In this document: one piece after another, positions 53,001-57,009 of the stretch
Layout of the letters: each line of letters starts with the position of its first letter
Position numbering within the stretch: the first letter of the stretch is position 1
From: Picochlorum sp. 'celeri'
Taxonomy: Eukaryota > Chlorophyta > Trebouxiophyceae
Direction of reading: 5' to 3'
DNA length: 64,000 nucleotides
Assembly (NCBI GenBank): GCA_010909725.1
Contig: JAACMV010000017.1
Span: 1-64,000 of the forward strand
Notes under the pieces: model-generated
Databases searched by the model: none
The model's input: only the letters and a program-made list of their open reading frames with translations
What the model was told of the DNA's origin: nothing
Position numbers and translations under genes: made by a program

Positions 53001-54126
53001 ATGCATCAATCTTCACCAGTGACGTTGACAAAGTCCTCGACCCTATAAAAAGCCACCTGAGCCTAGAGTCCAATATAATTCCGTATTTGGTAGGAATCTT
53101 GCATTCTGTGAATTTTGATGATCCTTGTGGAAAGATATTGTTACCGTCCTCAGCAGCAATGCTTGCTAGGCTGGTGCTCATCCATGGGGACGAAGCAGTT
53201 GTTATATTTGCCAGATCTGGAGGTCTGGATAGTGCTGTATTAGAAACGTGCGTTGAATTATACTTGAATTTAATGTATGACATGTGTTCATCTTGATACG
53301 GCCTATCATATTTTGCAGCTTGCTAAATGCCGGCAATTCTGATTCCATGCTTGCCAGTGCGCTGCTGGTTGTGTCTCAACTGGCAAGGACCGCGACGTCC
53401 AAGCATCAAATCGAAAAGTTTGTTGACTCTGGTATCATGAACTTGATTCCCCCTTTGCTGAGTGAGTCAACGTCCTCTGGCGTTCGGGCAAGGGCATGCA
53501 ATTTGTTGGGCAATCTTTGTAGGTATAGCGATGCCGTGTATCCAAGTATTCAGGAGTTGGGGATTTTGCCTCCACTGATCGAGCTGTGTCAGGACGACGA
53601 TCGTTCAACTAGAAAGTTTGCATGTTTCGCCATTGGAAATGCTGGCTTTCATAGCGATTACCTGTACGAAGACCTGCAGCGGGCAGTGCCCATACTAGTC
53701 CGCTTGCTAGAAGACGAGGAGGACAGAACGAGGGCAAATGCGGCCGGCGCTCTTGGAAATTTGGTGAGAAATTCATCTCTATTGGTTCCCAAGATGCTTT
53801 CATGTGGAGCAGTGGAATCTCTTCTCAGGATAATTCGCGAGGCACTTGCTGCTGTCGAAGGAAAATCAACTGCATTTCAGATAGCCTTGTTCTCCCTTGG
53901 CAATCTAGCAGCTCATCATGAGTGCTTGCCCAAGTTCCAGGAATTGAGAGTGGCTGATGTAATGCTGGAAGTTGAAAGCACGACAAAAAATTCGACGATA
54001 CTCAAGTATGCGAACCGTGTCCTGACCAAGATGAATACTGCTAGTAGTGGGGTCAAATCAAGGTCAAAGACTGCTGTACAGCAAACCCCGTTGAGGGAAC
54101 GAGATTCCGACAAATCAACGCCATGA
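50017..54126 (+). CDS. Fused/STK36-type kinase (TIO-like) with ARM repeats
   Basis: A homologue of animal Fused/STK36 and plant TWO-IN-ONE, which drives phragmoplast expansion with kinesin-12. Exons 50,017-50,290, 50,352-53,274 and 53,319-54,126 (introns of 61 and 44 nt) give 1,334 residues. The kinase domain starts at [19 protein letters not shown], with [44 protein letters not shown] and [20 protein letters not shown] Ser/Pro-rich linker of about 100 residues follows, then a long helical region. Exon 3 encodes clear ARM repeats ([56 protein letters not shown]). The 44-nt intron is required, because the exon 2 frame stops just after it. Confidence 0.95.
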
Positions 54127-54143
54127 GGTTATAAAAGTTACAG

Positions 54144-57009
54144 TTATGTAAAATAAAATGGTTTCACATCGCCCACGCCAAATTTTTCTCCACAGCCAGG
54201 GCACTTTCTGTGCCTGCTGGACAAGTTGACATCAATGCATGCAGAACAGAACAAATGATTGCATTTGGTGATGATACGATCTTTCAAACGTGTCGAGCAG
54301 ACACTGCAATTAACCATCTTTCTCAGTACCTCCCTCTCCGCTTCTTCGCCCGCTTGTAGTTTCAGGTCTTTTCTACCTGACAGAATCCTCTCTGCCCTAT
54401 CAGCTCTTGTTTTCTCAGACTTCAATGCTGCCAAATGCTTTGCTTTGTCAGCTTCTATCATCTCGATATCTTTCTTTGCGTTCGATAATTCGGATCTTAA
54501 TGCATCCATGGAAATTCTCAAAGCTTTGGCCTCGCTCTGTAAAGACTCTATTTGCTCCTTCGAGTGCTGCACATCCGTCTTGTAGACATCTCGCTCTTTA
54601 GATAATCGATCAAACCTTTCTTCTATTTCTTTCGCTCTTTCTTCCGCATCTTGTGCTTTTTGTTCCATAGACTTCATCATTCTTTGCGCCATATCCCTGT
54701 CCTCCTCCATGATTGTTTTGTCTCTAGCTGCAGCAGCCGCTTCACTCAGAAGTCTGGCATGTCCTCATCTCTCTTGGACATGGCAGACAGCAGTTTTGTA
54801 TTTTGATCTCGCGAAGCTTCATAAGCCTCACTGACACTATCCATTTCCTTCCAAAACGTATCTGCCTCGATCATCAAATTTGCCTTCTCAGAACGGACCT
54901 TTTCAACCTCTGCAAGCAAGCCTGCCTGCTTTCCCTTGATGCCCTCGAGCTCATTCCGAAGCTCATTGATCTCTTGAGTCATCTCTCTTTCTCTCTCTGA
55001 ACGCGACTCTTTCAATCGCTGCTGTGACCCGATTTTCCAAAGACGACATCTGCGTTTCAGGTACTCGTGTATGGCATCCCTGAATGCTAGCCTCCATTGT
55101 CTCATGTTTTCCCAGATACTCCTGGGACAGATTCCAGGAAGCAGCGGAGCTCTTCATTGACCTTTGTTTGATCCACATACTTTGAATCCAATCGTTGAGT
55201 TTAACCATCGAAACGCTCACCTGCTTATTCATGTCAGCAAACCCGGGATCTATACTCTGCATCTCCACCTCATGGGCAGACTTGAGCTTGTCTGGCTTCC
55301 TCCACAACCTCGGCAAGCCTTTTGGTGCTTTGAAACCGCATCCTTCAGCATCTTCATCTCTGTTTCCATTCCCTGCATTTGTTGAAGCAACTCATCTCGA
55401 GTCTGAGAGGAATCATTGTGCTTGCATTCCTGCCAAACTGACGTTCAGCCTCATTCCGCTCTTTCTAAGGGCGCTTCAACCTGTGCCTCCAGCTCCGATA
55501 TTGCATGTTCCAGCCTGGATTCACGTCTGAGAGCTCTTTGACCTTTCTCAAGATCCCGCACTGCATCCCGCAACTTGGAATTCAGGCGATCTTGCTCTCG
55601 ATAGGAATCTTTCAATTTTTGCTTCACCCTTTCCACATCTTCAGTCAGCAGGTCCAGTTTTTCTTGGCGCTGCGCGACCTCTATCTTTGTATTCCTCGGA
55701 CACTGCGTCCATCTCACGCCTCAGCGTGTATAATTCACTGCAAGAACAAGACGAACGACATGATGAGACGACGCGCCGCACAACCACCCATGGATGCAAC
55801 CAAGCAAAAATTCTACATCGGCACTATGCCGCCAAGGCGCCCAGATGTCATCTGGAGGGTCGCGGGTTCGATCCCCGCAGGCGATGGCGAAATTCCGCAT
55901 TTAGGGACAGTAAAATCGTCCTAGATTCCGGTTTCTAGACTCCCGTGGACAGGGAGGGTCATATAGTCTGACCTCTTTCATAGAGGTACTATGCGAGAAC
56001 GAGCTCGTCTCGTTCTGTCGCCTTAGCGCAGTGGATTAGCGCGCCAGACTTCGGCACTACTTTTTAGACATTTTGCAAGAAATACATACCTCTCAAACGA
56101 GCAATGTCTCCATCCCTCTTCTCCACCTCTTTCTTGAGAGCCTCCACCTGAGGTGCAGCCTCATCCTTTTGGTCCAACACTAATTTCTGCTCAACCCTTC
56201 CGAGACACCCTTTGCTCCCTCTGGGGCCTCTTCCGACCGAGACACGCCCACATCCCCTCCCACCCCTGTCGACACTCTTCTCCATCACGAGCTTGCGATG
56301 CAGCACTTGTATCTCTGCTTCCTTATCAGCAATATCTGCCTCCAGCTGCCTGATCGCTATCGAGTCCGACAGGGAATCCTTCACCAATTTTCCATTCTCA
56401 GACTTTAATATATTCACAAGAGCTGCCAGCTTGGACTCTTCAAAGCCAGGAAGGCTGCCTCCACCATTCCCTGCTCCTTTCATTTCCTCTATAGCATTCA
56501 AAATGGACGAAGCCACGGCCATTGTGTCCTTCATTTTATTTCGAAGCGCCTTCTCCGTCTCAGATAAATCATCTGCCAGGTTCTTGGCCGACTTGGCCGC
56601 CACAGGATCGTCTGGCAAGTACCTAGAAAGGAGATGGGCCAGGAAAGGATTCGTCTCCTCCAGAAGAGCTTTCGCAGAAGACGCATCCAACCCAGCGGGT
56701 GCAACCTCGGCACTCTCATTGACTCTGAATAAACATATGTAAACAATGAAGGAAGAATCAGCAAGAAGACACCATAACAGACGGCCACGTACTTGAATTG
56801 CAAAAAGCCAAGCGATGAGTTCAACTCGTCCCATACAGACGTCAGACAAGCAGCTGTATCCTTCCATTTTATTTCTTCGTTTTCTAAATTATGCAGCTGT
56901 CCTTCAAATCATTGATTTCCTTTCGCTGCGTTGCCACTTGAGCACTCAGTTTCGTATTCTTGTCCAGAAGCATTTGTTTGCCACCAATAGGTGGCTGAGG
57001 CTGGGGCAT
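54144..57009 (-). CDS. BRE1/HUB-type E3 ubiquitin ligase, frame-interrupted
   Basis: A RING E3 that monoubiquitinates histone H2B, nuclear. Exon 1 is 56,793-57,009, exon 2 is 56,090-56,724 (68-nt intron between), then an intron from 56,089 to about 55,738 and coiled-coil plus RING DNA down to 54,144. The C-terminal RING reads CSVCSTRLKDRIITKCNHLFCSACI...RHRKCPGCGEKFG and ends DVKPFYFT as in BRE1 proteins. The middle is coiled coil (KLDLLTEDVERVKQKLKDS, DELLQQMQGMETEMKMLKD) but switches frame near 56,905, 55,690, 55,455, 55,340, 55,020 and 54,765. At 56,905 and 54,765 one added base restores continuity. It may be an assembly error patch or a decayed gene. A tRNA gene lies antisense in the last intron. 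Confidence 0.8.
55850..56054 (+). tRNA. Circularly permuted tRNA-Arg(UCG) gene
   Basis: The 3' half lies at 55,850-55,886 and the 5' half at 56,017-56,054, so the B box (GGTTCGATCCC, 55,865-55,875) precedes the A box (TAGCGCAGTGG, 56,024-56,034). Joining the 5' half to the 3' half gives a cloverleaf. The acceptor is GTCGCCT with AGGCGAT (one G-U); the D stem is GCGC/GCGC with an AGTGGATTA loop. The anticodon stem is CCAGA/TCTGG around loop CTTCGG-A (anticodon UCG), and the T stem is GCGGG/CCCGC with TTCGATC. The junction is at 37/38, the usual intron site. The variable loop is 6 nt (5 is usual). The intervening DNA is 130 nt and no CCA is encoded. A normal tRNA is ruled out because no A box lies upstream of the 3' half. 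Confidence 0.88.
55921..56016 (+). ncRNA. Structured intervening segment of the permuted pre-tRNA
   Basis: Between the two tRNA halves four simple hairpins follow one another. They are CTAGA/TCTAG (55,921-55,938), CTCCC/GGGAG (55,940-55,956), ACCTCT/AGAGGT (55,971-55,987) and an 8-bp AGAACGAG/CTCGTTCT stem (55,996-56,016) that ends one base before the mature 5' G of the tRNA. This RNA would be excised by RNase P and RNase Z. Whether it is a by-product or a stable RNA is unknown. Confidence 0.5.
56061..56065 (+). terminator. RNA polymerase III terminator of the permuted tRNA
   Basis: A T5 run follows the 5' half after six bases. A terminator after the 5' half, and not after the 3' half, is expected only if the halves are transcribed together in permuted order. 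Confidence 0.75.

Follow-up and report, generated by a model that had tools for sequence, protein, structure and literature searches.

Can the two halves of a transfer RNA (tRNA) gene that stand in reverse order in the genome of the green alga Picochlorum sp. 'celeri' still give rise to a working tRNA? The question is raised by a locus at 55850..56065 of contig JAACMV010000017.1, which a first-pass annotation had read as a circularly permuted gene for tRNA-Arg(UCG); the window analysed here is the first 64,000 nucleotides (nt) of that contig (C17:1-64000). The assembly holds 27,412,692 bases in 30 contigs, and the published genome is a phased diploid of 27.43 Mb, divided into two sets with 15 scaffolds each and with a GC content of 46% (PMC7225527; here and below, published work is cited from those portions of each text that were available). 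Among the best 120 of 474 matches to a 1059-aa protein of the window, the highest-ranking named relative comes from Nannochloris desiccata (57%), and Micractinium, Chlorella and Auxenochlorella come next. The locus is very probably a functional nuclear gene for tRNA-Arg(UCG), circularly permuted and of type II, with its junction between tRNA positions 37 and 38. Every structural element named in the first-pass annotation was found, and ten more permuted tRNA genes were recovered from the same genome.

Structure of the tRNA-Arg(UCG) locus

The plus strand carries the 3' half, a spacer of 130 nt and the 5' half, in that order (Table 1), and the T arm with its B box accordingly lies upstream of the 5' half with the A box, as had been claimed. 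All seven acceptor pairs (six Watson-Crick and one G-U, between 55879-55885 and 56017-56023) and all five anticodon-stem pairs (between 56044-56048 and 55851-55855) were counted, and the halves joined from 56054 to 55850 have the complete anticodon loop that had been predicted and were called tRNA-Arg(tcg) by ARAGORN. No run of four T residues (T4) occurs between the halves, the longest T run within the permuted unit being three, while the TTTTT run that follows the 5' half qualifies as the terminator of RNA polymerase III that the annotation had placed there. Neighbouring joins were also accepted by ARAGORN as legal tRNAs, some of them with other anticodons (Glu, Pro, Thr, Gln, Ala), and junction 37/38 was therefore chosen by analogy and from the pairing of the leader, not from ARAGORN alone. 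The exact join position proposed in this way is consistent with the pairing register 32:-3, which stands out over 11 genes (see below).

Ordinary tRNA genes were not found in the 64-kb window by ARAGORN or by Rfam at gathering scores; a permissive Rfam search gave one weak tRNA match over the leader and the 3' half (15.9 bits, E 1.9). An ordinary intron-containing tRNA gene at this place was considered and rejected: matches to the 5' half were confined to 56017-56054 and its three copies, and the similarity between the leader and the gene's own 5' half did not exceed that of shuffled sequences (p 0.29).

The resemblance to a permuted tRNA was scored with two covariance models. The first (R1) describes the permuted layout and was built from 15 sequences, the window gene included, whereas the second (R2) was built from only 13 ordinary tRNAs of this genome, permuted in silico with random linkers, with no permuted gene in the training set. 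R2 was run over 179,026 bases in 78 sources, with E-values that are rough because the calibration was shortened. Scored in its permuted order, as the annotation had proposed, the window locus reached 53.2 bits (E 6.6e-16) with R2, and nothing else in the 64 kb matched at E up to 5. Two copies of the gene with a variable loop of 5 nt reached 61.1 bits with the same model.

Table 1. Positions of the permuted tRNA-Arg(UCG) gene, its surroundings in the window and the permuted tRNA genes found on other contigs
Feature	Position or locus	Contig	Strand	Description
tRNA-Arg(UCG) 3' half	55850..55886	C17	+	position 38, anticodon-stem 3' strand, variable loop, T arm with B box, acceptor 3' strand, discriminator G
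T arm (B box)	55862..55878	C17	+	GCGGG-TTCGATC-CCCGC; from sequence and covariance-model matches
Intervening sequence	55887..56016	C17	+	130 nt; tRNA 3' end to 5' end in the precursor (pre-tRNA)
tRNA-Arg(UCG) 5' half	56017..56054	C17	+	acceptor 5' strand, D arm with A box, anticodon-stem 5' strand, anticodon TCG at 56051-56053, position 37
Trailer and terminator	56055..56065	C17	+	CACTAC, then T5 (56061-56065); from sequence
Leader adjoining 3' half	55840..55849	C17	+	bases -3, -5 and -6 pair with tRNA positions 32, 34 and 35; -4 against 33 is T-T; relaxed bulge-helix motif
Leader repeat ACATCGGCACTA	55815..55826	C17	+	11/12 identical to 56048-56059 (end of 5' half and start of trailer)
Putative spliceosomal intron of coiled-coil protein gene	55738..56089	C17	-	GTATGT...TTGCAG; with it removed, the frame is open throughout the 499 codons translated for L039 and L040
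13.7-kb segment	48811..62506	C17		second copy inverted at C17:531938-545619, 99.4% identical, with second copy of the tRNA gene
tRNA-Arg(TCT)	L089	C5		permuted, 37/38
tRNA-Ala(TGC)	L082	C4		permuted, 37/38
tRNA-Ala(CGC)	L110	C10		permuted, 37/38
tRNA-Gly(GCC)	L080	C4		permuted, 37/38
tRNA-Cys(GCA)	L108	C10		permuted, 37/38
tRNA-Leu(AAG)	L070	C2		permuted, 37/38
tRNA-Leu(CAG)	L112	C11		permuted, 37/38
tRNA-Leu(TAA)	L133	C15		permuted, 37/38
tRNA-Ser(GCT)	L131	C15		permuted, 37/38
tRNA-Ser(AGA)	L075	C3		permuted, 37/38

Permuted tRNA genes elsewhere in the genome

Further permuted genes were sought on contigs C1-C15 around B-box matches to GGTTCRANYCC, with models built for junction 37/38. Judged by tRNA pairing and the TCG pattern search, no two of these contigs appear homologous. 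A total of 100 of the 187 B-box matches were listed, of which 16 fell on ordinary tRNAs already found, 2 on copies of the window gene and 6 on C16 (the partner of C10, left out), and the remaining 76, corresponding to 73 loci (33 of them represented by only about 300 bases each), were examined. Including the Arg(TCG) gene of the window, at least 11 different tRNAs are permuted in this genome, all of them at junction 37/38 (Table 1); the number is a lower bound, since the search covered one T-arm word, contigs C1-C15 and one junction.

All 11 units have seven of seven acceptor pairs and five of five anticodon pairs, the acceptor count being in part a product of the procedure, which took the most complementary stretch as the 5' half, and after joining the amino acid assigned by ARAGORN fits the anticodon in each of them. 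In every unit the halves lie side by side on a single strand, with their order unchanged. A run of at least four T residues starts 4-36 nt after the 5' half in 11/11 genes and occurs inside the unit in only one, Leu(TAA), where it runs into the anticodon. With R2, all sister genes but one were recovered, the nine of them at E 1.6e-10 or better. The exception, Ser(AGA), has the weakest support of the members counted (26.3 bits with R1 and no R2 match at E up to 5), although it keeps its 7/7 and 5/5 pairs and its ARAGORN assignment.

The intervening sequences of the sister genes measure 11-48 nt in nine cases and 58 nt in the tenth, compared with 130 nt in the window gene. All counts leave out the second Arg copy, whose entry (2703 nt) started from a wrong upstream match. 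The two Ala genes have the start of the trailer in common, and two Leu genes share most of their intervening sequence; going by these sequences, permuted genes (the two for Ala, and two of the three for Leu) seem to have been duplicated and then to have changed their anticodon. In both permuted Arg genes (L089, and the window gene at 55887) the intervening sequence opens with GCGAAA directly after the discriminator base.

Weak model matches were set aside for several reasons. L069 was read as an ordinary Ser(TGA) gene with an intron, L107, L119 and L065 have no convincing 5' half downstream, and L100, L103, L104, L124 and L129 match little beyond the T loop. L115 (C14:4.6 kb), L127 (C15:4.1 kb), L084 (C4:1105 kb) and L134 (C15:944.8 kb) are copies of one repeat found near contig ends, which carries a tRNA-like T arm; the copies are 82-91% identical to L127. 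A tRNA-Cys (anticodon aca) called by ARAGORN across the Gly(GCC) locus was taken as false. Exact words from both halves of tRNA-Arg(UCG) had no matches in viral contigs.

Pairing of the leader with the anticodon loop

Were the halves joined through the tRNA splicing endonuclease, the bases ahead of the 3' half would be expected to pair with the anticodon loop at one constant offset, with a bulge of three bases left over. Over the 11 genes, tRNA positions 32-35 and leader positions -3 to -6 form 34 standard pairs out of 44 possible (29 of them Watson-Crick), compared with 14-21 of 44 in ten other registers. When leaders were swapped among the genes, the mean was 18.3 Watson-Crick pairs, swapped leaders still pairing in part because the anticodon loops are alike, and 34 standard pairs were reached in only 1 of 20,000 trials. 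The 32:-3 pair is Watson-Crick in 9/11 genes and G-U in one more; at the lower end, the central helix of Ser(GCT) has one pair of four. The signal belongs to sequence absent from the mature tRNA, and leader pairing is regarded as the best evidence that these 11 genes are processed. A comparison with seven introns of ordinary tRNAs, two of which (Leu(CAA) and Ser(CGA)) had ill-defined borders, is not counted as evidence.

Expression of the window gene would proceed as follows. A single RNA, running from the leader through the 3' half and the intervening sequence to the 5' half, would be made by RNA polymerase III, with termination at the T5 run. The transcript would fold in such a way that the two halves form a cloverleaf whose free ends lie in the anticodon loop, where the splicing endonuclease, guided by the helix between leader and anticodon loop, would cut at positions 37 and 38 and a ligase would circularise the halves. 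By analogy with Cyanidioschyzon merolae, RNase P and tRNase Z would remove the intervening stretch, and CCA would be added. Nine matches to the splicing-endonuclease family PF01974 were found in the genome: two form a pair, on C7 and C24, and the other seven are of a second type. Matches of this second type have equal scores and lie at 1564-1779, near the contig start, on C9, C12 and C26, and at C10:613187, C16:614070, C21:81237 and C25:30222.

Alternative explanations

Several observations weigh against a working gene, and most of them bear on the strongest competing explanation, namely that the locus is a dead tRNA fragment whose halves were left by the rearrangement of an ordinary gene and are no longer used; this is very improbable. 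The first concerns folding. The minimum-energy fold of the isolated transcript is not a cloverleaf, and in it the leader pairs with the 3' anticodon strand; the energetic cost of imposing 17 tRNA pairs is 4.2 kcal/mol for the window copy and 4.8 for a copy with a 128-nt spacer. The same enforcement in the ten sister genes cost 0 to 5.8 kcal/mol. In addition, the central helix between leader and anticodon loop has three of four pairs in the window gene, with a T-T opposition at 33:-4, and thus belongs to the relaxed form of the motif. On the other side stand the intact stem pairs and a leader pairing that is common to all 11 permuted genes.

The second concerns the sequence of the window copy itself. 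The permuted unit is present at four places, two per haplotype, because the 13.7-kb segment that contains it is repeated in inverted orientation on the same contig, and such a duplicated setting would suit a discarded fragment. Across these copies the 5' half is identical in 4/4 and the 3' half in 3/4, an argument for maintenance that carries little weight as the copies are recent. The window copy is the deviating one: its variable loop reads AGGGTC (6 nt) where the other three have AGGTC (5 nt), its intervening sequence has 130 nt where theirs has 128, and it shows other 1-nt indels relative to them. The extra G is probably a consensus error, given these indels, a host-gene reading frame that is broken in the window copy and open in two others (see below) and a published assembly that was polished with long reads only (PMC7225527).

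The third concerns the possibility of an ordinary gene that would make the permuted one dispensable. The first-pass annotation had called for a check that no ordinary tRNA-Arg(UCG) gene exists elsewhere, and no intact one was found, within the limits of strict patterns and one similarity search, which may have overlooked an intron-bearing TCG gene whose D arm differs. A pattern for an intronless TCG tRNA gave 9 hits, compared with 10 for the reversed control; a pattern for the 5' half gave the four known copies and one further hit, compared with two for its control; and a similarity search with the joined tRNA gave eight hits, all of them halves of the four known copies. The list of ordinary tRNAs is likewise incomplete, 63 of 866 candidates having been scored to yield 34 Rfam hits, of which 32 are paired on apparently homologous contigs. 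Altogether 19 ordinary kinds could be read (18 from the Rfam hits, plus Ser(TGA) in L069), and none of the 11 permuted anticodons is among the kinds on this incomplete list. Two of the 18 were read against ARAGORN, L029/L030 as Arg(CCG) and not Trp, and L033/L034 as Leu(CAA) and not Arg(tct) or Gly(tcc); should the Arg(tct) call at L033/L034 be right, one anticodon would overlap with the permuted set.

A split tRNA, in which each half would be transcribed on its own and the two then joined in trans, as in Nanoarchaeum, is more improbable still. The spacer of 128-130 nt, which exceeds any intervening sequence in a table published in 2014 (1-74 bp; PMC3978253), could be taken in its favour, but no T4 run separates the halves, the sister spacers are 11-58 nt long, and halves lie next to each other on the same strand and in the same order in 11/11 genes. 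The least probable explanation, a likeness to tRNA by chance or through a mobile element (a SINE-like repeat or an organellar insert), can draw on the abundance of B-box-like words (187 matches to GGTTCRANYCC, compared with 157 for the reversed pattern) and on the tRNA-like T arm of some contig-end repeats, but is hard to maintain for a unit found at four places in all, only at the duplicated locus, whose paired halves score far above background with R2.

For the permuted gene, the long spacer may have a bearing on folding. In its 128-nt form it has a predicted energy of -45.2 kcal/mol, compared with a mean of -32.4 for shuffled sequences (z -3.7, none of 200 shuffles as stable), and the whole unit is also more stable than expected (z -2.2, 4 of 200 shuffles as stable). 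According to this modelling, a structured spacer may bring the halves together; a separate RNA function of the intervening sequence is possible, if unsupported.

Origin of the permuted order

In the published model, a tRNA gene is first duplicated in tandem and then loses the outer halves, which leaves the permuted order (PMC3978253). The leader of the window gene contains a repeat, ACATCGGCACTA, of the end of the 5' half and the start of the trailer (Table 1), located where duplication and loss would leave the upstream exon-intron border of an intron-bearing tRNA gene; the implied ancestral intron would be 28 nt long (55822-55849) and would end exactly at the 3' half. Shuffled leaders reached the score of the repeat in 3 of 2,000 trials, and in none of 500 in a second run. 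The other ten permuted genes have no such leader repeat (p 0.23 to 1.0), and general comparisons of the leader with the gene's own 5' half (lowest p 0.16) and of the trailer with its own 3' half (lowest p 0.095) were negative in all 11 genes. As the repeat was seen before it was tested, and in one gene of 11, it is suggestive only. The leader might thus be a fossil of the permutation, a relic of the lost upstream 5' exon and the start of its intron left by tandem duplication and loss, a tentative reading that we regard as rather unlikely to be correct. If it is, the duplication-and-loss route would be documented directly in the sequence of this locus, in a genome with at least 11 permuted anticodons.

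Comparison with known permuted tRNA genes

The closest counterparts are the type II genes of the prasinophytes Ostreococcus and Micromonas (Maruyama 2010, via PMC3978253), which likewise have junction 37/38 and a relaxed bulge-helix motif. Leu(TAA), Cys(GCA), Arg(TCT), Ser(GCT) and Ser(AGA) are permuted both in the prasinophyte set and in Picochlorum, whereas the Arg(TCG), Ala(CGC), Gly(GCC) and Leu(AAG) of Picochlorum do not appear in the table of PMC3978253. The four green algae of that table have 3-6 permuted genes per species, with intervening sequences of 11-64, compared with at least 11 permuted anticodons in Picochlorum and a spacer of 128-130 nt in the window gene. C. merolae (Soma 2007, via PMC3978253) shows the same order of the halves, a T run after the 5' half and no encoded CCA; it also has 11 permuted genes, and Ala(TGC) and Leu(CAG) are permuted in both species. 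Its junctions lie at four positions (PMC3978253), in contrast to the uniform 37/38 found here with a search model built for 37/38, by which others could be missed.

The first-pass annotation had also stressed the rarity of such genes. That they are known in prasinophytes holds, while their supposed rarity in the green lineage has to be tempered, as Auxenochlorella UTEX 250-A, a member of the same class (Trebouxiophyceae) and also a phased diploid, has permuted tRNA genes too (PMC12636532). Its ordinary tRNA search likewise returned an incomplete set. For Picochlorum itself, no report of permuted tRNA genes was found in the open literature, including the available text of PMC10943592, PMC4494063 and PMC13353863, a scope that excludes subscription papers and most preprints; in the paper on Picochlorum SENEW3, tRNAscan-SE was used and the word 'permuted' is absent from the main text. 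Permuted tRNA genes were thus already known, including in a trebouxiophyte, and what is new here, relative to the 2014 table (PMC3978253), is the host genome, the permuted Arg(UCG), Ala(CGC), Gly(GCC) and Leu(AAG), and spacers of about 130 nt. Such genes escape standard tRNA annotation, and their spread in green algae is therefore probably underestimated. A fast-growing, genetically tractable alga with at least 11 anticodons encoded in this way would make the pathway directly testable.

Host gene and surrounding duplication

The permuted gene appears to sit antisense within a spliceosomal intron of a coiled-coil protein gene (about 53900-56900, minus strand), a placement that depends on the predicted splice borders (Table 1). 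Single-base indels interrupt the frame of this host gene in the window copy; in L039 and L040 it is open over the 499 codons that were translated, which suggests local consensus errors in the window copy. The host protein gave weak Pfam matches below the cut-off, mostly to coiled-coil families. The 13.7-kb inverted repeat around the two genes could be either a real duplication or a misplaced haplotig. About 10 kb of the segment is also present twice on C8, the homologous contig, and the repeat is followed by a piece of 2.49 kb that is 100% identical to C17:67611-70100.

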